Positions 42,579 to 59,465 of a DNA stretch of 64,000 nucleotides are shown here, one piece after another (the first letter of the stretch is position 1; each line of letters opens with the position of its first letter). Both the position numbers and the translations under genes were made by a program. Origin of the DNA: Ulva prolifera (lineage: Eukaryota; Chlorophyta; Ulvophyceae; Ulvales; Ulvaceae); assembly GCA_023078555.1 (NCBI GenBank), contig JALAAN010000010.1:1240001-1304000 (forward strand), in the 5' to 3' direction. The notes under the pieces were generated by a model. It was not told where the DNA came from. It searched no databases and saw nothing but the letters and a program-made list of their open reading frames with translations.

Positions 42579-42787
42579 GTGGCTACGGGATACGCTTCTC
42601 GGAGATTTCAACCTGTAAACGCCACAGCGGAGCCACGCTCGCCAGCTGAGTCCGATCCGGACAGAATTCGAGACTGTCTGACAGAAAATGGAGTGTTAAT
42701 GGAGTCTCAAGCAGCGATGGAGGCCGCTCCACCACCGTTCTGGTGCCAGGAAGTGGCTCAGGCAATTGCTCAGCAGAGATCCATGCC
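42579..42787 (+). CDS. Candidate orphan exon
   Basis: An open frame encodes DPDRIRDCLTENGVLMES, then QAAMEAAPPPFWCQEVAQAI, then AQQRSMP, and runs into a plausible donor (CCAG/GTGAGCC) at about 42787. The composition looks like real protein and the exon lies about 2.1 kb upstream of the first resolved exon of the SH2 gene, so it could be an early exon of that gene. No ATG opens it and no homology is recognised, so this remains speculative. Confidence 0.3.
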
Positions 42788-44719
42788 AGGTGAGCCCCAA
42801 CCTCTAGCGACCATCCTCACCCGCAAAGGCCGACGATCTACCAACAGAAAAGTCCTCGGGCCCGCGCGTACCCCAGTCCATGCCTCAGCGCACGCAGGGC
42901 AGCGACCCAACTTTGCCATTGCAACGGACTGTACTCAGCTCAGGTACCGTCGAAACTGAGCCTTCGAGGCAGTGGGACGCAGGCAGAACGACGGCCCGCC
43001 TGGCAGACAAGCGCGCACGCTCGCAGAGCTGTCACAGTCGCACGCATGGGCATGTTTGTAGAGGTGGCGGTGTCCAGCGGCTTTCGAATTGCGCAAATAG
43101 CGCCCACGGAGGCGGGCAGGCGCGGGGGCGCTTATAACAAGGTTTACGGCCTATAGCGTGCGCTTTGCGCATGCCGGTCGTGCACAGTACGTAGCGCAGT
43201 GTTACAAAGCAGCGCACGGGCGTCGGTGATCACAGCACAAGGCCTCGAATTGCGGTGTAGCTTCCGCCTCCGCGACGGTTGAGTTTCCACAGCAGGGCAC
43301 AGCAGACCTGTGGCAGCATGTGACTGCACTGACAGTCACCTCAGCCACAAGCATGAGCACCTGCGCATGCTTCGTGAGCGATTCTTGTGCTGTGCGTCGT
43401 TGAATTGTTCTACTGGGTGTACCCGCAGGCATGGTACCTGGGTTCGGCAGCAGCGCAGGCACAGGCACTTGTGCCGCAGACGTGCTTGTGCCGTAGACGT
43501 GGCAATGCCACGCGACGGTCCACACGCGGCTGGCCGCCTTCCTGCGCACCAGGCCGGTGTACAGTCGTCCGTGCGCATGCAGCCACGCACGTGCGCTCCA
43601 CCGTGTCAGATTCGCATTTTGGGCTGGCAGTGACCAAAACGTTACAGAACGAGGCATTAGTGACCAAAATATCCGAGGTACTTTTATTTTGCGTTACGAC
43701 GCGTAACTTGCGAGCTCACACGCGCGCCGGCGACATTTCGGACTGGTCTTAGCCTGAGCGTGGTAGCTTCCGCAATGTAGATTCATCAATCATAATACCA
43801 CAGCTGGTATGGTTGATGTGCTGCTCCAGGTCTTGCTTGCCACAGCGGGGCGCGGACCGTAGGGCCAGCTGGCACACTATCGTGACCCCCGCGGCAAGTG
43901 TATGCACGTGCCACGTGTTCTCGCAGAAGAGCGCTTAAAAAGCGTTAGTGAACGGACGAGAGCAGACACGATATATGAATATCGTACCGTAATGCATTTG
44001 CATGCATGACTCAAATGTATTTGCATGCATGTTCCTGGCAACGCACCTCCACACTCAGAGCGAGTGGGTCTAAACGTATTTCGTATTTTGGCAGCGCAAG
44101 CAGTGTCTGTCTGCTTCCGTTCACTCTTTTGTAAAACCTGTCGGGGCCCCGTCGATGGGTGTGACCCCGGTGGTTGGCACACACTTGGCCATGGTGCACG
44201 TGGGCGCACGTGCCGACTGAGCGTAGCATCTCGAAAACAGCAGTAGCATGACACCTTTTCGTTGCAGATGTAGAGTCAAAACCCGGGCATGTGATGCACC
44301 ACGTCTTTTGCAAGCCAGCTGCTCGAGTGAGTAATATCGGTGTTGCGGATATCTGCATCATCGATGGCGGTTAACAGCAGACATGGAGGAATATTCCTGC
44401 CAGCGCTTGTGTACAAGCGCTGCATCGAATCAGTCACATGACTAGAAGTGGAGCGGCTGACTTTGAGTATTTGGGGATACTAATGACACTTCCGGAAGGA
44501 GGTGCTGCAATCAATAAGGGTTGCCCGGCTTAAATATGCATCATGGGTGCTTAGGTAAAACTCTGCGGCATTCACCATGGCTTACTGGCCTTACTGGCGT
44601 CAACAACATCCCAATCAGGAGGGCACAGAGCCGAGCCGACAGAGTTCGGCTGCCCCCTGCTGCCTGCGATCCAGCTTGCAAGCTGAGTGCATCACCTGAC
44701 ACGCGATCCCATTTTGAGC

Positions 44720-44744
44720 TTGTCAATGTCGTCTTCGGGATACG
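44720..44744. repeat. Dispersed repeat shared with 38.23 kb
   Basis: TTGTCAATGTCGTCTTCGGG, continuing ATACG, matches 38232-38256 with two differences. At 38.23 kb the word directly follows a LINE tail, so it may be flanking sequence carried between sites. Confidence 0.75.
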
Positions 44745-44935
44745 GCTGAGTAGACGTAGATGTAGTACACTCTTCTTTACTCCAGCCGCAGCGCGCACTG
44801 TCTGTCGAGTGATCGGTGCCCCCCTGCTGCGCCCACGCACGCCCGGATGCCCTCGATCTCTTGCGACAGCACCAGCCGGCATCCTGCTGCACCAGCACCA
44901 CGCCCGACACCGACCCCTGCATGCCCTGCCTGCAG

Positions 44936-47900
44936 GTCTAGAGAAGCGGCAGCACCAGTTCGTGCGGTACGAGGGCCGCACCGAGGCGGCGCCGTCGGCG
45001 GACGGGTGGCACGCGTCGCTCAGCCCCGCGACCGCCGCCCGCGGCGGCCGGCCGCCGCTGCCGCCGACCCTCGGCCTCGGCGCCGACGGCAAGCCCCTCA
45101 CGCCGGAGGGCGCCGCCGCGCCACTCGCGGACCCCGCAAGTGTGCGGCTCCAGATCACTTCCGCGCCGGCGCACTTCTGCCTCCCGCAGAAGAATGACCG
45201 GCAGTTCAAACCCGCGTTCCACGTCCAGGTGCGCCTGACACCCATGTAGCCACAGCTGTCGCGCCGTGATAGCGCTTCCAAAATCACGCGCCCAGGTGAT
45301 GTGCCCCCGGAGGCAGTCGAGGAGTCGTCGCTGACTGTCGTGGTTTGGGGGGGCGAGGGCGATCTGACCGTGCTGTGTGCTGTGCAGGTGCGTGTACAGC
45401 ACGACCCGACGCGCTCGCTGCAGCTGCCGCTGCGCGTGAAGGCGTTTGCGGTGACGCAGGAGGAGCGGGAGGCGCTTCCGGAGTGGCTGCCGCCGGAGCT
45501 GCGCTCCACGCCGCCGCCGATCCTCGGCACGATCCCGGTGCCACCGACGGCCCCTGGCATGGACCTCAAGGGGCCGACGGTCCTCAGCCACACGTTCCGA
45601 TCCTATATTGTGCGCCCCCCGCGCCTCCAGAACTTTGCTGTAGAGGAGGCTGCACCCCGGATGTGCCATGCGCAAATCGCCCCGGCTGTGTGCTTCGACT
45701 GTGACTCACTGTGTCGCTCCAATGGCGGGTGCTTTCCAGGGTCCCGTGTTGGAATGCATGGCCTGCCATGCAATCATGGGCACCAAGGATGTCTCTGCAA
45801 CTTGAATTGAATGCGAGCTGTCGTCTGAGGGACCAAACACTCATGGCCCACGAGGGCTGGAAGCCATGTTAGCCATGCACGTTAGCCATGCGCCTGGCAT
45901 GCCCTGGGGCCCTCAGACGGCCGTACACATACACTGTCAGATCTCCAGAGGTGTCACATCATGTGCAGAGTGCTGATGATCACTGATCTGTATGTGTGAA
46001 TTCATGTATGCATGCTATAGATCTCTGTGACCAGATCTGACTGTGGCTGTGTTCCACCTGGATGCCTGAATTCCTCGCAGCGTGAACTGTGTATGTGACC
46101 AGGAGGAGTGCCCCCTGTGGGCACAGGAGCAGCCTCCCCCTTGTCATCCAGTGTCACCACTCTACTATTTATGTTAGACCAGGAACTCCACATCACCTGA
46201 TTACGAGATGTGCCATTGCGCTTGACTCCAGTATAAAGTTTGACAGCCACTCTGCGGGGTGCGTAATAGCTTTGAAACACTGTGCTTGAAGCCTATGATT
46301 CTGGACCGGGCACTTCAATCGCCACAAATTCAGTACATTGAAAAATAAGATGTCCTGTGACGAAATACGGGATGCACAAAATACAGGATGCGCGAGTCTC
46401 AACGAATCACATTGCCACCTAAACCTACCTCCGCCTGAAACCTCCACCAGCAGACCAGTCATTGCATGCATGTGGCCCACGTACTCCTCCCCGCACCCCC
46501 ATGCATCATCCAGCAGCGTGGTGGCTCCTGCCGTGTCTCGGTGCAGTCTCTCACTTCACGTCCGCTGCCGTTTCACCGCACCAGCCAGACATGTTGAAAC
46601 TGTGTGCTTCGGAGGGCACAGCTCTTGCACGTTCGATCACCGCGTCATGCATGGAGATACAGCAGGTAGTGAGGGCACCACTGCAGAGCAGCCGCATGAC
46701 ACAGCAGGGGAAAAACCGGGAGCGATTCTCATCACAAGCTCGACGAGGTGCAGTCCCCCCCCCCCCCCCCCCCCCCCGGGCTCCCCCGCCAGACAAAAAG
46801 CTAAAGCAAACCGTCTGATCCGGATAGCCCAAGCACCTGCGGGACATGCAGGCCCTCCCCCCGCCCAGCGACAGCGCCGGCCGCGCACCCGGAGACACGG
46901 CAGAGGGCCGCAGCCGGCCGCTGCCGATGTTCCCGACGCGCGTCATCGCCGAGGAGTCAGCGATGGCGTCCCGCACCCTCGCCGACCCGGCCTGCATGAT
47001 GCCCTGCGACGACGACCCGAACATGGCGATCCCGATCGGCGCCGCCGCCGACATCGGCACGTGCACGGCGCGCTTCGAGTTCAAGGGTCTTGAGTTCGCC
47101 CGCCCAACACGCATGGTGCGCATGCGCCCCGGCGCGCTGCTGACAGCCGCGCACAAGCTGCCGCGGCCATCCCTCTGCGCTCCATCGGCCGTACAGAGGG
47201 GAACTCCAGAGCTTGTGTGACTAGGAGCATCTGCAGATGCTGTATAGGCACCCAGGCGATTATGTGCATGTGCATGTCCTTCTCCTCGTCGAATTGGCAG
47301 CCAGGAAGCTTGGGGTGATTCAGGCAAGGATGCAACCAGGTCGGCTGTGACCAGGTCGGCTGTGACCAGGTCGGCTGTAACCAGGTCGGCTGGACAAGGG
47401 TGTCCGCTACTGCACTGTACCTTTCCCGGCGTAGGCGTACCCAACGGACACCTTGAATTTAGGCACCTGTCTGGCATGCCCCTGTGGTGCCACGACGGTG
47501 CAGTTGTACCTTGGTGGTTGAACAGGAGGGTGGCCGAGTGCAGAATCCGGTGTACCTCGTCTTTGCGTGCCTCATCGGCGGCAGGGACCTCGTCTACACA
47601 ATCTACGACGTCCCAAGCATCTCCATCTGCCGCGCCGACCAGCGAACCAAAGCGCTCTCGCGGCTCGGCCTGCCTCCGAGCGTGTACGCGGAAGTCACCG
47701 AGCTGCAAGAGGGCCCCGCGCGGCCACACCGGCCGGTGCGCCGACGCGTGCGCCGCCTGCAGCCGCCGGCGGACGGCACCGCCGGGGCAGCCGCAATGAC
47801 AGCCGGTGCCGCTGCAGCGGCAGCGGCGGCGCCGCCCGCCGCCGCGGCGGCAGCCGCTGCCGTTGCGGTTCCCGGCTCCGCTGTGGCGGTGCCGCAGGGG

Positions 47901-50900
47901 GCGGGCCCGCCGGCGGCGGAGGCGCCACCGCTGGGAGGGGCGGCTGTGAACCAGGACGATGTTGCCGGGGAGAGCCTTGGGGAGTGCCGGGGCATGGAGG
48001 ACATCTGGGCGGACGTCGCGGATGGCTGCACCGGTGCGCGGCCCCCTTGAAACTGCAGCTCTGCAGCGCAGTCCCCAGGACCGCTACAGCTCACACCACC
48101 ACAGTGTCCGGCGCATGGCCATGCGCTGGATCACCTGGAGCACTCTGTCGCTGTGCGTACGGGTGACCATGACCTCGGCTTGCACGCACATGAGTGACTG
48201 AGTTCAGCATTGGCTGCGCTGGTGAGGAGCACCAGCTCCTCACCGCTCAAGTCTAAGCAGGTCGCCCGCCTGCCTTGTTGTGTAACGGCATCGTTCCCTG
48301 CATTTGTCAAATGCCGAAGTGACATCGTCCAATGGGTGCAAACGAGATGGTATTGTCAGCCGAGGCGGCATGATAATGTGGCAGTGCCTGTTCGCTTGCC
48401 TCAGGCTCTCGAGTAGGTCACACAGCAACCTTCGCGTGCTGCCGTGCCTAGGTGTTGTTACTTGTGTGTTTACGAGTGCTGGTAATCCTGCAGTGTGTGT
48501 GCGCTTCATGCGGACCTACCTGTCCAACACGGTCCTCGCAACACAGCATCTTTGTGGCGCTGGTCGATAAAACTTTTAACTACATCGTTATGAGCGTCAA
48601 TACAAAGCGGACCGATGCACATGTAGCAGCGGATGCATCGCACTGAATTCATAAACCAGCACAACAGCGTGACTCCAACACTGCCCCAAACGCACGAACA
48701 CTCCCAGGACACTGCAGCCACTTTGGGGCAGCCTCGCAGCACACTCCAGTACTCTCGCACGTGCCCCACCATGCGCCCCCCACTCACACACACACCCACA
48801 CCCCCATACCCGCATCGACCCCAGCTCCCAGCAGCACTGCACGGGGCGTATCTGTATTCCCGCCTTTGATGTAGTGCTCCACATGCCTCCTGCCAGCACT
48901 ATCCTATCCTGCCAGCACTATCTGAACTGCCCTTGGGACATGAGCAGCAGCTGCATTGTATCATCATACCATCATGCATAGGTAGTGCAGTGTCCACATA
49001 CCAGTGCATGCCTCCTGCCCAAAGGCGGCTCTGCCACTGCCAGCTACTTGCAAGGCTGTTCTGTGAGGCTGTGTGGTGTGCTTGATCAGCCATGAGCCAG
49101 GCGTGGATGCTGTGTGCCCGTTTGCCACATACTTTTGGATCGCCCTGACGCCACTTGCGCCTGTGTTTGGTTTTGTATATGCTTTAAGCCGTGTCAGTCC
49201 TGAGCACCACCCTTGTGTTACAAGGACAAAGTAAGCAAGGCAGGTAGCACCGCAAGCAACAACCAGGGAAACCACACACCACGCAACGTGCACACACCAA
49301 CACACCCACGCAACGTGCACACACCAACACACCCACGCAACATGCACACACCAACACACCCAGGCGGCTTCCGTGTGGGGCCGGCGCCGGCCGGGCCGCT
49401 GCATGGGGCTGCCGCAGCCGCGCGGGCGGCGGGGTCGTGTGGCGTGTTGGTGTGTGGGTTTGTGGGTGCTTGGGTGTGTGTTTGGGTTTGGGTCTGGGCC
49501 GCGTGCGGGTGCGTGGGTGCGTGGGTCAGGTTTCAGTGTGTGGTTCGTGTGGTAGTGTGTGGGAGCGTGGGGGTGTGTGGGTGCTTGTTCTGCCTTGGCG
49601 TTGGCTGTTGCTCTCCTGTGCGTGCGCTTTGCGTAGTTCGTGCTCTCCCTTTTGGTCCTGGCGGTGCTACCGGCCCCTCCGGCTTTTTCCTTTGTAACAC
49701 ACCAACACACCAACGCAACATGCACCACCCCTGTGTGTCTTGAACAGAGCAAGTCTCCATGCATGCAACCGTGTGGTGTGTGAGTGATGTCGACATCACT
49801 CACAGATCAGAACACGTCACATCAGCTTATACATCACTCTATCGCAGATGACACAGATTCCAGGCACAAGCTTGACGGCAAGGGTTGCCCAGGCACCCTG
49901 GGGCATACCCTGGGGTATGCATCGAGAGTGTTATGTTATTTCAAAATTGTATGACCCCGACGCCTGGGGCCCCTATAGTCGTGAGTTTGAGCCTGAGCCG
50001 CAGAGACCGACCCTGAGCTGGGCCCACCCGTAAGCAATGCGCCCATGCATGAAGGATGATGCTGATGATGCTGGAGTTCCTGACGTTCACTTATTCGCTG
50101 AGCTGACCATGTTACAACACACGTTTCAGTGCTCTGGGCTGATCAGGTTTGCACACACGGGCTACGGCATGTGACGTGCAGCTGCAGTGAGCATGCAGCG
50201 TTCCACATGTGCATACCTTTTTCATGATGCAGCATTCGACAACTGGGGCAGTGCCCTGCCAGCTGGTCTGTGGGGCCTTCAGACCTTGACTGCAAACACG
50301 CAGTCTTGTTTACAGAAGAGTGAACCGGAACAGACAAACACAAGATACGAATCTCATTCCGAGTACATACACGCAGTACTTCTCTTGCTTCGCTCCTGCT
50401 CCAGAGACTGCTGATCGCTGCTGATGCACGCGTCATCTAGGACCGTGTGAAGCGTACCACGTGGAAAGTAAAGCAATAAGCGAATCAGGCATACCGCCGT
50501 AACCATGCAATATGTCGAATCGCATGATCAGCTTCCACAGCGGTTGCGCTGAGCATTCAATAGCTGACGCCGCCGCCTGCGAGTTCGCAGTGAGCACATG
50601 TGCGCCCGATTGCGCATGCTCCGTGCACAAAAGCTCCCCACGCCAACCTCATAATCACTTTCTGACGCCGTACACTGCCTTTGCTGATTCACCTTTTAAG
50701 AAAATATGCAATATTGCCTCGCCGTGCGTGCGCGCATCGCGTCTGTCAGCAATGAGCGAGCTTCCCCGCGAACGGTACTGTGTTGCGGAAGCTTAAGAGT
50801 GGACGGGCGGCAAAACTGTGTTTTTCGGTCACAGGCTGGAAACGTGGTCGGACTGTCGTGTGACCGACATGTGGCGACAACGCGTTGCAACGCCCACCCT

Positions 50901-53900
50901 GCAGGAGGACTGCAGCGTCGCGCTTCCACCATCAGCGCCTCTTACCCGCCGGCGCGCCTGCTCCTGCGTAATCACAGCCATGCTTGCATCCTCGATCGGG
51001 GCTGCACTTGTCGATCAGCCTGTGCCTCGGGGAGATGAGGCTGCGCATACGACCATTTGTCTGCTTTGTGTTTGGGCGTTCAGCAAGTTCAAGCTGTCAG
51101 CTGCAGGTCACGCGCAGCAGCTGCTGCGCGTGACCTCGTACGCAGTTGATTCACGGCTTCCAATGTGTCGGCACGCCCGAAGGGCGGGCGCTGCAGCTGC
51201 ATGCAGCCACTACTGGGATACAGCCTGAAACAGAAGCTAGTGTGCATTGGCCGCTCAGTCCCGTTCACTCTGCTGTGAAATGTGTCAGAGCCGGAGCTCT
51301 CGCGATGTTTCGGTATCCGAAGCGCAGCACAGCAGGCCATCACACCAGCACACCTCAAAGGCGGGCGGTCGCCGCGCAGAATGTGAACATAATGCGCAAG
51401 ATCATGCTGTTGTTCTATGTATTACAAACGAGTGAAGGGGGGAAGACCAGTTCCACAACAGAATCTCATCCGAATCAACAGACGACCACACTACAACCGC
51501 ACCCGCAACTCAGTCCGGCAGGATCGCGTGCACAAGAAGATGGGGTTATGGGCAAGCCCGCCGGTTCGTGCGCACGCATGTGGCCAATGGTCAGGCCGCC
51601 GAACCGAGCACACTTCTGCGCCATGTCAGCACATGCGCCGTTTCAGCTTTTGCGTGACAGCACCCGTGTCGACGCGAACGAGGATACAATGCACAGTCTG
51701 TACATGTTCCTGTTGCAACAACATGTTGTTCCTTGCGTAGAAGGAGGCTTCGTGCCTGCATCGCTACAGTGGAACAGCCACGAACTGCTGTCTTCACTCT
51801 TTTGTCGTAACCGTTCTCGCTGCACCGTGCCGCTAGCCCAGGCCTCTTCACGCAATGCAAACGCGCGCACCGTGCACGTGGCTGCCCGTCACTGTGCCTG
51901 GTGCGCTGGCCCCCGTCACCCCGACGCGTGTCTGCCCTGCGCAGTGCGCACGCAGCACGCACGATGACAGAGGTGTCGAACGCGACCCGCCCCCACACGT
52001 CTCGCCAGTTTTCTTTTGTTGTCTCAAACAGCGGGTCTCGCCCAACGAACAGCATCTGGCAGCAAGGCAAAGCAAGCAGCGCCCCCCACACTGCCACGGT
52101 CGCTGTAATGCCCACGTTCGACGCACACGACCGTTCGAGCCTGGCCGTTGACCCGTTGCCGGAGTCAAGCATGCACGCGTGGAGGATGTGTACACTACAA
52201 CGGCCAACGCGCGCCGACCCCCGGTGAGCTCTGGACACACACGCTATACTGTATCCACGCTATCATCGCGTGGATACAGTAAAGCGTGTGTGATACATCA
52301 TATGATATGCAATACTGTGCCCAGAGCCCGCACAGGCCAACGAGCGCACTGCAGTGGGGCCGCACAGGCTGCTGTCAGAAGCACTGGACTCCGGACTTGC
52401 TGAGCTACTCACCGGACAGCTGCTGGCAGCAACCCCTGAACATAGCATCACTGCTGCTTTAGCACATCACCCCGCATTATGGTCAATACATGGGCAATGC
52501 TGCTACAGGAAAGTGCACCTGCCTGCTTCCTTGTCATTGTAGCACTGGCATACTGGCATGTGCGAACATGTGTAGATCCCAACATGTGCACAGAGGATGC
52601 ACAGTACACAACAACAATGTGGCAGCCAGCAGAGGCCCAAGATCTGCGTGGGGCTTTTGCCATGTGTTATGGCAAATTGCTTGGCAATTGACCACGCAAG
52701 TCATGCCAGCAAGCCAGGGTCACGTGCCACGTGACAACGAGTGGAATTGAGGCTCTGGGAGGCAGGGTCTGGCAGCAGACATCTCTTCTCCTCAGTGCAC
52801 TTGGCATAGCCAACCCTTTGGCCTCCCTGAGCTTGAGCACACCTTCACCATGCATGCCGCACCCATGGGTGCACCTGTCCCCAAAGCCCCCCACCTTCAT
52901 GCCCAAGCCCGGGCTCTCACAGGCACCTCATGCATGCAGCTGGCCAGATCGCCCACTCCAGCAACGCCTCCGGCCCCCCGGCTGCCCTCGGCCCCCCCCT
53001 GGATAGGCCCCCCAGCAAGACCTCCCACGACGGCTCGCTGGAGGATCGCGCCGCCGGTGAGTCCGCGGCGTGTGCTGTGCCCTCACAGACCGCAGCAGGC
53101 GCAGCAGGCACAGCAGGCCCGCAAGACCCGGCGTCTGTGGATGAAGTTCTGAAGCACTTTCTGCAGTCCAACGACAAGCTCGCGAGCCTGTCGCTCTCGC
53201 GCTTCAACATGGACACGCATGGCCGCCTCGATGGGGAGGCTGCCTCGGTACGCAGCGTTCTTCTGAATCTGTTCCCCCCCCCCAAAGTAACCTGAACATG
53301 GCCATGTGGTGCACGCCGTCTTGTCGATGTCAGTTGTTGCATGCCTGTTGATTGTGTTGCATGGGTGACCTGCGTACACCTGGCCCATGCAGTACTAGTG
53401 CAAGTCCAGACACCCGCATCTCGATGTTCCACACGCTGCCAAGCTCTGATACGTATAGCGCGACCCCGCCCAGCCGACCGACCCACAACACGGCACGCAA
53501 TGTGTTGTCTTCATGCGGTGTACATGCATGAGCAGGCGCCGGCGAGAAGCGGCTCCCCGTATCTGCCGAGCGAGCTGCCACCTCTGGATGACGCGCTCCC
53601 CGACGCGCCCGCGGTGGAGGCGCGGCAAGTTACCGCCGGCACCACCCTCAACATCAGCCACGGCCCCGAAGGCGCCACTCCCCTGATGGCCCTGCCATCC
53701 CTCCACAGCAACCCCACCCTCAGCCTCAGCTTCTCTCGCTTCATGGCCGCCCTGGATGACGACCTCCGCGCGCTTGGCGGCAGCCACGCCCTGGCCGACC
53801 CGCAGGTAGCCCCTGTAGCCACGGCCTCCCCACCGCCCGTGCATCACCCGCCCGCCGACGCGTCCGGCATGGGTGAGGGGCCGGAGAGCACCGGGCCTGA

Positions 53901-55909
53901 CGCGCGGAGTCCGGACCAGGTGCCGCTGGCCAGATCTCCCCGGCCGGGTTCCGCGCCGCGCGTGTCCGCTGTGAATCACCTCTCTGCGCATGAGCTGTCG
54001 CGGCAGGTTGCAGAGGAGGCGGGGACGGAGCGCGACAGGCAGCAGGCGGGCGCCCCACCTCCACAGCCCGCGGGCGGTACTCTCATGCGGCTTATGAATG
54101 TGCAACAGGACGACACTGACAAGCTCGAGTTGCTGCTGTCAGACGGGCCCCCACCAATTGCCGCCGCGCCACACCGCAGCGGCGGCGACGTGAAGCGTGC
54201 TGTGCACGCTGTGCACCCCCGCATGCTGCCCGAGCGCGACCCCGGCCATCCGTCCCGCGGCGCCGTGTCCGGCAGCCCGCACGCGGAGCAGCGTGCGCCG
54301 GCGGAGTGCCCCGGCAGCGCGGGCGGCGGCGCCCGTGCCGGCGGCCTCCCGCGCATCTCCTCCGCCGACGAAGGCGGCCCCGCGTGGCTGTCGCCGCGGT
54401 CCACGGCGACTGTGTCAGCGCCACGGCGGCAGATGCCGGAGCATGCATGGCTCGCGCCGCCGCAGCACGCCGGCAGCGCGACGCTGTGGCAGGACGAGAC
54501 GCTGCTGCGGCGGTCGTCTGTGGAGGGGCCGGCCGCCACCTTGGAGGGTGTCTCGCAGGCGGAGGTTCACGGCTGGATCAACGATTCATACCTCTCATCC
54601 GGCCTCATGCGGCCGCTGTCCTGCCTCGACTATCAGGTGCGCATAATAAAGAATAACGAACAATCATGAAGTGTTCCCACGCCTCCCGGACACCGTCCCG
54701 GTTGCGCTGTCCGAGTTCACGCGCTGCCCGCGGAACATGCACGCCCCTCCGCCCGTCGCCTCTGGAGGCGCTGGAGTGTGGACCTGGCACGTACCATGCC
54801 CGCGTCTCTGATGCTGACACCTATCTGTTCTGTGTGTGAGTGTGCCGCGTACTCAGTCTTGTCAGGTGCCACACACTTCGCGCCGCATGCAGGCGCTGCT
54901 CTCGCTCGCGGGCTTCCCAGCACTCGCCGGCCTCGACACAGCCTCCCGCATCCCCCCCGGCCAGTTCCGCGCCTTCCAGCGCCACTTCACCGGCGCCGTG
55001 GGCCTGCTGCGCAGGGCCGCCGACATCTGGAACCAGACGGACCCCCGCATCGTGAGCGGCTTCGACATGGACGCCCAGGCCGCCGAGGCGGCGCTGGCTG
55101 TGCAGCCCATCGGCACGTTTGTCTGCCGCCTCTGCATGCGCCAAGCCGGCTGCCTTGTCCTCTCTTGCAAGGTGATTCCCGCCCACACATGCATGTGGCC
55201 TTGCTATACGCTTGATGCAACAGCTCCTCCGCACCGCGCGCAGCCGTGCGTCGTCCTGAATTCATACGACTGTTGCACAGAGGAGGCGGACCCTGAGAAG
55301 TCGACGCGTATGACCGGATGCTCTGCCATGCAACGGCGCTGTCTTTCTGAGTGTGTGAGCGTGTTGTGGCTACAGGTGGATCCCAGCACGGCCAGCACGG
55401 ACGCAAGCAGCAATGTGATGCACGTCACCATCTCGGCCGCCGACCTCCGCCGCTCCGACCCGTCGCAGCTCGTGCTGAGCCTGCCCTACGCCAGTCACAT
55501 GCTCGACGTCGGCACCGGTTTCCGCATCGACAAGCGGACGGTGCTCCCCGGCCACCAGGTCAGCATCACGCTCGCGTTCGGCATGCTCGCAGTCCAGGCC
55601 GCCGTCAGTGACACCTCCACCGCGCCCCGCGCCGGCGGTGGCCACAAGCGGCCTCTGGAGGAGCTTGCAGTCCAGGCCGCGGACTCGGCGGTGCGCAGCG
55701 TGCAGCGAGAGGCTGCGGCGGCGAAGCGGCGCCGCGACGGCGAGGCTGCGCCAGTGGAGGACACGCCGCAAGAGGGCCTTGAGATGATGCCCGGGCCGCC
55801 GCGGGGGCTGCGGCGGCAGCCGCCGGCGGACGCGCTGCCCCGACACGCGTCGCACAGCGAGTTCACGCGCTGGGCCGCACACAGCACGATGTCCAACTCC
55901 GGCATGTGA
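44936..55909 (+). CDS. STAT-type linker-SH2 protein, multi-exon (5' end missing)
   Basis: Resolved exons are 44936-45228, 45388-45609, 46852-47115, 47544-48033, 52940-53247, 53536-54636, 54866-55171 and 55376-55909. Phases agree up to 54636; most donors are GTGCGC. Exons 7-8 give the diagnostic part. FRAFQRHFTGAVGLLRRAAD then IWNQTDPRIVSGF resembles the STAT linker. PIGTFVCRLCMRQAGCLVLS aligns with the SH2 GTFLLRFSxxxxGG segment, keeping the phosphotyrosine-binding Arg. After the intron, NVMHVTISAADL and LVLSLPYASHML resemble the SH2 C-terminal half. Exons 1-4 encode beta-rich segments (FKPAFHVQVRVQHDP, RFEFKGLEFARPTRM, NPVYLVFACLIGGRDLVYTI, YDVPSISICRADQR) that could be a p53-like DNA-binding fold. 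Basic stretches (RPVRRRVRRL, AAAAKRRRD) suggest nuclear entry. The tail lacks a tyrosine. Plants have STAT-type linker-SH2 proteins (SHA/SHB). The sequence at 54637-54865 does not join cleanly, and two genes remain possible. Confidence 0.6.
46755..46777. repeat. Poly-C tract (23 C)
   Basis: A run of 23 cytosines in the intron between SH2-gene exons 2 and 3, about 75 bp before the exon 3 acceptor, where it adds to the pyrimidine-rich character of the intron end. Confidence 0.95.
47338..47394. repeat. 15-bp tandem repeat
   Basis: Four near-identical copies of CAGGTCGGCTGTGAC lie in the intron between SH2-gene exons 3 and 4. Each copy contains a potential CAG/GT splice-like junction. Confidence 0.9.
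49218..49722. mobile_element. Composite retroelement with inverted tails and target-site duplication
   Basis: The left end TTACAAGGACAAAGTAAGC, then GGTAGCACCGC, faces an inverted right end GGCGGTGCTACCGG, then CCGGCTTTTTCC, TTTGTAA. In between lie three copies of a 27-bp unit (ACGCAACGTGCACACACC...) and G/T-rich sequence. The flanks CACCACCCTTGTGT (49204-49217) and CACCACCCCTGTGT (49723-49736) differ at one position and look like a target-site duplication. It lies in the 4.9-kb intron of the SH2 gene. Confidence 0.6.
49779..49804. repeat. Perfect 26-bp palindrome
   Basis: TGTGAGTGATGTC and GACATCACTCACA are exact reverse complements centred on GTCGAC, inside the large SH2-gene intron. Confidence 0.92.
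50308..51812. mobile_element. Cluster of GTTACAAAAGAG-family ends
   Basis: Ends of the second dispersed family occur at 50308 (GTTTACAGAAGAGTGAACCGG, direct), 51260 (CCGTTCACTCTGCTGTG, inverted), 51420 (TATTACAAACGAGTGAAG, direct) and 51792 (CTTCACTCTTTTGTCGTAAC, inverted). The pair 51420/51792 bounds a 390-bp unit resembling a miniature element. All lie within the large intron of the SH2 gene. Confidence 0.5.
51105..51136. repeat. Perfect 32-bp palindrome
   Basis: AGGTCACGCGCAGCAG and CTGCTGCGCGTGACCT are exact reverse complements with no spacer, inside the large SH2-gene intron. Confidence 0.93.
52236..52291. repeat. Cruciform-capable inverted repeat
   Basis: The inner arms ACTGTATCCACGC (52248-52260) and GCGTGGATACAGT (52268-52280) are exact. 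Outer arms ACACACGCT and AGCGTGTGT extend the pairing after a two-base interruption. Confidence 0.85.
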
Positions 55910-58443: not shown

Positions 58444-59465
58444 TACGACCAAGACAATGAGGCAGGTAGCACTGCAGAACGCAGGTGCAGCACCGACATG
58501 AACAGCCAAAAGGGGGTCAGGCAATTCAGGTTGCAACATCCCACTCAGTGAGCTCAGAACAAACAGCCGCCATGGGGCTCCAGCCCGAGGGGCTCTGCTG
58601 CCGAGACCAGCGCACGGAATGCGGCGGCGGCGTCCACGCGCTGCCCGGCGATGGTGCAGTCGTCATGATACGCCATGAGGGCGGCCGTGACGTCAGGTCG
58701 ACCTCCCTCCCGGGTGGCTGGTGCTGGGCCTGCACTGCCTGGAGGGGCCCCGGAGGGCCCTGGAGGGCCAGGGCGAAGAGCAGCGGGCTGATGGGGTCGC
58801 CTTGACGCACGCCGCGCTGCGACGTGATTGCAGCGGTGCCGGGCGGTGCGCCTTCGATGTAGAGATTTGCGGGGAACCTGTAAAGCATGGTGGCGAAGGG
58901 CAGCAGCGCAGGCTTGTGAGACGCAACGGCCTCCAAGATGGCTGCACGGGACATCATGTTGAATGCATTCTTCCAGTCCAGCTGCACAAGCACACATCGT
59001 CCCACGCTTGCAGCACGGCGCGTGCAGCATGGCCCAGGTTCTGCGCGCCCCCTGGCACCCCGACCCCCACCTGCAGCGGCGCGAGGGAGGCACCTAGGCC
59101 ACTGCACAGGGTCATGGCGCACAGGCTTACCAGGCGCTGCCACGTCTCTGCAATGGCGATAGGGCGGACGCCTCCCTGTGGCTTCTCCTGCGGGAGGAGG
59201 CGGCAGTCCAGCAAGCGCGGGAGGTGTGGCAGCCGGCCGGCGAGGGCCGCATTCACGAAGCGGTGAATCTCCGTGAATGCGGCCGTGGAGGCCGTGCCGG
59301 CAGCCCGGATGTGCTCATACGTCCACCCCGACAGGCCTGGGCCGCTGCCCTTCGGCAGCTTGTCGAGCAGGGCGAGGAGCGTCACCTCGTCGATTTGCAG
59401 CGGGGGCGCGGGCTCGGCGGGCTGGGTGTCGGGGGGAAGCGCTTCTGCGGGATGCAGGTGCCGCA
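58444..59465 (-). pseudogene. LINE (non-LTR) reverse transcriptase, truncated and frameshifted
   Basis: On the minus strand a reverse transcriptase can be followed across three frames. It opens with LLALLDKLPKGSGPGLSG and WTYEHIRAA, then RLLPQEKPQGGVRPIAIAET and LQVGVGVPGG. After a one-base shift near 59.0 kb come LVQLDWKNAFNMMSR (motif A) and QRGVRQGDPISPLLFALAL (motif B). After a second shift near 58.72 kb come MAYHDDCTIAG (motif C, Y-x-D-D) and EPLGLEPHGG. No endonuclease or upstream coding part remains; homology starts at about 59465, where a dispersed 60-bp repeat begins. Downstream, GCAGTGCTACCTGCC, then TCATTGTCTTGGTCGTA (58475-58444), matches the 3' tail shared by the short dispersed copies, so this is probably a 5'-truncated relative of their parent element. 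It cannot encode a working enzyme. Confidence 0.85.

Follow-up and report, generated by a model that had tools for sequence, protein, structure and literature searches.

STATs are usually told as a story of animals and amoebae. In their classical switch, the SH2 domain of each partner binds the phosphotyrosine tail of the other. A CudA-like DNA-binding domain reportedly lies upstream of the SH2 domain in plant proteins, as Yamada and colleagues are said to have described in 2008, and CudA is not known to carry an SH2 domain.

Plant linker-SH2 proteins were published by Gao et al. 2004, as cited in a passage of PMC12287357, and excerpts of further papers count STAT among the transcription-factor families of plants and give a domain model for it (PMC4827209), describe two STATs in Arabidopsis and one in tomato (PMC11989334), and term plant GRAS proteins STAT-related (PMC8607625). 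As for CudA, distantly related proteins exist in plants according to one paper (PMC3188802), and CudA-like factors are stated in another to be found only in Amoebozoa (PMC8808424). Furthermore, an excerpt on Dunaliella salina (PMC5441111) mentions a protein with an SH2 domain that decreases in palmella cells, so green-algal SH2 proteins have already been reported. The kind of protein considered here is therefore known, since plant linker-SH2/STAT proteins and the Dunaliella protein are in print. Among open-licence papers, no literature was found that deals with Ulva STAT-type genes or the present gene family, nor a published account of a green-algal multigene set, of SH2-free beta-rich copies or of a graded pocket.

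Here we describe such a gene in Ulva prolifera and at least two further copies in the same genome. With a probability of roughly 0.68, it encodes a plant-type STAT-like nuclear factor in which the linker-SH2 region is an assembly module that lacks the classical tyrosine switch.

Gene model

The window, by which we mean the whole stretch of 64,000 nucleotides that was analysed, carries on its plus strand a gene at 42699-55909, modelled by splicing as nine exons that encode 1203 amino acids. Each of the eight introns has GT-AG borders, and no internal stop interrupts the spliced reading frame. The exons given by the first-pass annotation, together with the segment PIGTFVCRL...GCLVLS, lie where it had placed them, and the gene gains an additional 5' coding exon (42699-42789) outside the range it had marked. 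This exon was recognised because a motif resembling FW/IW..EVAQAIAQ..SMPG recurs upstream in the C1:6770 and C10:1342 paralogues, and its donor and acceptor phases agree; the motif was not found in the 2.5 kb scanned upstream of the C10:1310 paralogue. The exons and other features of the window are as follows.

42699-42789, plus strand: exon 1, MESQAAMEAAPPPFWCQEVAQAIAQQRSMP, with a split Gly codon; the start codon is a predicted one.
44936-45228, plus strand: exon 2, start of the beta-rich domain, VRLQITSAPAHFCLPQKNDRQFKPAFHVQ; tblastn matches to paralogues and a shared intron.
45388-45639, plus strand: exon 3, beta-rich domain; paralogue matches.
46852-47115, plus strand: exon 4, beta-rich domain, GTCTARFEFKGLEFARPTRM; paralogue matches and a shared intron.
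47544-48033, plus strand: exon 5, end of the beta-rich domain, NPVYLVFACLIGGRDLVYTIYDVPSISICRADQR, followed by a run of basic residues and by Ala-rich sequence of low complexity; paralogue matches and splice phase.
48034-52939: 4.9-kb intron between exons 5 and 6, with simple repeats.
52940-53247, plus strand: exon 6, low-complexity spacer; open frame and splice phase, the least supported exon.
53536-54636, plus strand: exon 7, low-complexity spacer, with GVSQAEVHGWINDSYLSSGLMRPLSCLDYQ as its final 30 codons.
54893-55171, plus strand: exon 8, remaining linker and first half of the SH2 domain (GTFVCRL ... GCLVLS); paralogue, profile and hhalign matches.
55376-55909, plus strand: exon 9, remaining SH2 domain, Tyr-free tail and stop codon; paralogue matches and gene model.
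58529-59314, minus strand: reverse-transcriptase stretch (PF00078, E 3.2e-5, below the cut-off).

The exon that starts at 47544 stops at 48033, and the one that follows begins at 52940 in matching phase. The final 30 codons of exon 7 are probably the start of the linker, and they are kept in both SH2 paralogues. By eye, two clusters of basic residues, HKRPLEE and AKRRRD, can be seen in the exon 9 tail, and another one after the beta-rich domain. The reverse-transcriptase stretch and the related-looking frames around it, which were also judged by eye, are probably the remnant of a retroelement. The first-pass annotation had taken the genome for an algal one, and this agrees with 38 chlorophyll a/b-binding matches, one of which was tested and retrieved 76 distinct PDB sequences with E-values up to 1e-60; a long LHCI chain came at the top of its rows, followed by LHCII-type chains, which are presumably from land plants and green algae.

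Paralogous loci and the number of genes

The genome that was searched comprises 88.9 Mb in 44 contigs. The SH2 half recovers the gene itself and two other loci, at about 6.770 Mb of contig C1 (minus strand) and about 1.319 Mb of contig C10 (plus strand), with an additional match at E 1.94 that has a stop inside. Queries with the other two SH2 copies lead to the same three loci and to none further among the matches listed, hence the genome holds at least three copies, and more divergent ones are possible. The exon at 54893-55171 is 61% and 43% identical to the two paralogues (E 5e-36 and 5e-23), both of which also match all four beta-rich exons. The two halves are collinear, with matches at 6770458-6774423 in C1 and at 1310782-1319713 in C10. 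The introns after exons 2, 4 and 8 occupy identical positions in all three copies, while the exon 7/8 junction has an intron in two of them and is continuous in C1:6770, where the final 30 codons of exon 7 run straight into the next exon.

The beta-rich half is more widespread, giving 25 matches and, with further search, 11 loci, three of which have an SH2 domain. In a tree of the 11 loci (85 columns), the three SH2 copies fall on one side of a branch (85/74), a grouping that 1 of 500 label shuffles reaches at as low a value, and no branch is fully supported anywhere. A cluster of at least six beta-rich loci lies at C1:6882137-6922855 (L021-L025), with no SH2 match from the three SH2 queries. 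In addition, a BTB/POZ-like stretch (L020:5575-7134, at about 7.79 Mb of C3; E 0.033, below the cut-off) lies downstream of a beta-rich locus and possibly belongs to the same gene. Two scans of viral contigs and one of prokaryote genome contigs returned 24, 33 and 47 stretches, none of which was confirmed as a relative.

The two halves are thus conserved together in the paralogues, and the window locus is probably one gene, as initially proposed, and would give a single transcript, since at the DNA level the halves occur in identical order in two paralogues and share introns with them. Alternatively, two genes might stand next to each other, a beta-rich gene running from 42699 to the in-frame stop codon at 48048, followed by a linker-SH2 gene at about 52.8-55.9 kb. 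Such an arrangement would be compatible with the 4.9-kb gap that separates the halves in the window copy, with the exon 5 frame hitting a stop soon past 48033, with the eight of 11 beta-rich loci that have no SH2 match, and with the basis of exon 6 in frame and phase. However, the halves adjoin on the same strand and in the same order at both other SH2 loci, the matched pieces of C1:6770 are about 1.6 kb apart with long open frames between them, and a beta-rich part lies upstream, on the same strand, at all three SH2 loci found, which makes two separate genes improbable.

Domain identity and the phosphotyrosine pocket

By profile comparison, the C-terminal half is a divergent STAT-type linker-SH2 region, because a profile built from the three algal copies leads to a STAT and its hhalign score lies far above shuffles. 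In a PDB set of 177,635 sequences, the best match of this profile is Dictyostelium STATa (1uur, E 0.0017), over both linker and SH2 domain. Six rows appear up to E 10, the others being SOCS1 (0.11), 3mx9 (0.3, no SH2 domain), 2rvf (0.77) and STAT5B (0.86 and 0.89); 2rvf, a 'predicted protein' aligned at its GTFLVRDS motif, is read as SH2. An hhalign comparison with STAT1, STAT5B and STAT6 gave a probability of 86% over 105 columns, and its score of 45.8 was not reached by any of 100 column shuffles (13.8 +/- 2.3). Both the STATa and the hhalign alignments cover the SH2 domain together with the latter half of the linker, which places a STAT-type linker directly before SH2. The expected motif at the end of the linker is present as IWNQTDPRIVSGF, with W-N, five residues, Ile, two residues and GF; one residue before the Ile had been missed in the earlier count.

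Pfam yields SH2 as the sole family for the three copies, matching two of them (best E 0.0015), while the window copy, with 14.8 bits to PF00017, stays below the cut-off of 21. The full 1203-residue protein matches no Pfam family at E up to 1. Searching PF00017 against the whole genome gave no matches, and the same was true of 14 control genomes, hence the result is uninformative. A Pfam scan of the nine exon pieces also produced weak unrelated rows besides SH2 (the best being a DAXX histone-binding model at E 0.037, in the spacer), which were dismissed as chance. A structure prediction from the single sequence 54893-55597, including the translated intron, reached a pLDDT of 42.

The upstream exons had been described as beta-rich and as a possible DNA-binding region. 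A profile of four beta-rich sequences recovers no PDB chain at E-values up to 10 and nothing meaningful in Pfam (a chalcone-synthase model reaches E 0.084 in one of the four members). When the trimmed core is compared to the STAT DNA-binding domain, the score is 15.85, which is not significant, as 8 of 100 shuffles score as high. Over the 31 aligned columns, DVPSISICRADQR is paired with the SLPVVVISNVSQ strand, the last strand as expected, and this pairing is suggestive. DNA binding by the beta-rich domain is plausible in view of its position upstream of the linker-SH2 region and of the plant work attributed to Yamada and colleagues. In the gene model, the core is preceded by only about 100 residues.

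The phosphotyrosine pocket is changed. Alignment with STATs gives Arg and Arg at the alpha-A and beta-B positions in C1:6770, Ala and Arg in the window copy, and His and Tyr in C10:1310, so that the beta-B Arg is kept in two of the three algal copies. In all four STATs aligned, Lys or Arg occupies the second alpha-A position, which was located by counting residues backwards from GTF. The tail of the window protein is free of tyrosine, as had been noticed from the start; its last Tyr lies at position 1064 of the 1203 and still belongs to the SH2 domain. Tyrosines follow the conserved SH2 block in the C1 copy, and none does so in the C10:1310 open frame.

Two other readings of this region have to be weighed. 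The SH2 likeness could be a chance motif in a low-complexity algal protein, given that a PDB search with the single exon 8-9 frame, intron included, returned six rows without any SH2 or STAT, and that the exon by itself matches Pfam SH2 at E 0.24 only. This reading is largely refuted by the profile search, which STATa tops, and by the hhalign score far outside the shuffles, and about 190 residues are conserved among the copies; we consider it very improbable. According to the other reading, the SH2 domain still recognises phosphotyrosine, and the protein is recruited to, and dimerises via, phosphorylated partners, much like a canonical STAT minus its own tail tyrosine. The beta-B Arg of the window copy would fit such a role, and so would the paired Arg residues and the tyrosines past the SH2 block in C1:6770; moreover, divergent tyrosine kinases occur in Chlamydomonas, as stated in a passage of PMC8662651. 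Against it stand the alpha-A Ala of the window copy and the Tyr that replaces Arg in C10:1310. Two canonical patterns of the tyrosine-kinase catalytic loop had no matches in the genome (a Ser/Thr pattern had 12), although divergent or dual-specificity kinases and intron-split loops could escape these patterns and account for tyrosine phosphorylation. We hold a phosphotyrosine-reading SH2 domain to be rather unlikely.

Proposed function and comparison with known systems

The preferred reading is that of a STAT-like factor whose SH2 domain works without the classical switch. Its layout would comprise an N-terminal beta-rich, probably DNA-binding domain, a long low-complexity spacer, the STAT-type linker with its SH2 domain, and a basic tail, the clusters of which could act as a nuclear import signal. 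The protein is most likely nuclear and a regulator of transcription, and its linker-SH2 region would serve in assembly, where the SH2 domain could bind the phosphotyrosine of a partner weakly, or else a non-phosphorylated surface. The classical switch should fail between two copies of the window protein, because the basic alpha-A residue is gone and the tail has no tyrosine. More tentatively, a beta-rich DNA-binding family may have kept or gained the STAT linker-SH2 region in one branch, where it would be turning into a phosphotyrosine-blind assembly module, and the three copies could represent steps of this change, a scenario about which we are doubtful.

Several green-algal genes that combine a STAT linker-SH2 region with a beta-rich domain would inform our picture of the ancestral STAT before animal tyrosine-kinase signalling. 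Furthermore, the graded pocket change within one genome makes an SH2 role without phosphotyrosine testable. The first-pass annotation had stated that plants have only linker-SH2 proteins, which proves too narrow, as the listed families of plant transcription factors include STAT. It had also expected an unusual member, and the protein of the alga stands less alone than this, because of that listing and because a CudA-like domain reportedly lies upstream of plant SH2 domains.

Animal STAT1, STAT5B and STAT6 resemble the algal protein across the SH2 domain and the latter half of the linker; they differ in that the match to their DNA-binding domain is not significant and that the window copy lacks a tail tyrosine. 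Dictyostelium STATa, which tops the PDB matches of the three-copy profile, resembles the algal copies over linker and SH2 domain, whereas the window protein lacks a tail tyrosine, has a changed pocket and offers no long stretch upstream of the beta-rich core in which a coiled-coil domain could fit. The alga has beta-rich copies free of SH2, a layout that the CudA-like factors of Amoebozoa may share. The SH2 protein of Dunaliella salina is likewise a green-algal SH2 protein. In plants, SHA and SHB of Arabidopsis, SlSTAT of tomato and the transcription-factor family 'STAT' likewise have a STAT-type linker followed by SH2. A plant SH2 protein, used as an approximate query sequence, aligns with the algal linker-SH2 region (blastp E 0.002; hhalign score not reached by any of 60 shuffles), while the beta-rich core gave no alignment to this query, its score being reached by 31 of 60 shuffles. 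The alga has at least three SH2/STAT copies, compared to two in Arabidopsis and one in tomato in the excerpt of PMC11989334, and its protein probably belongs to the family of the plant linker-SH2/STAT-like proteins.
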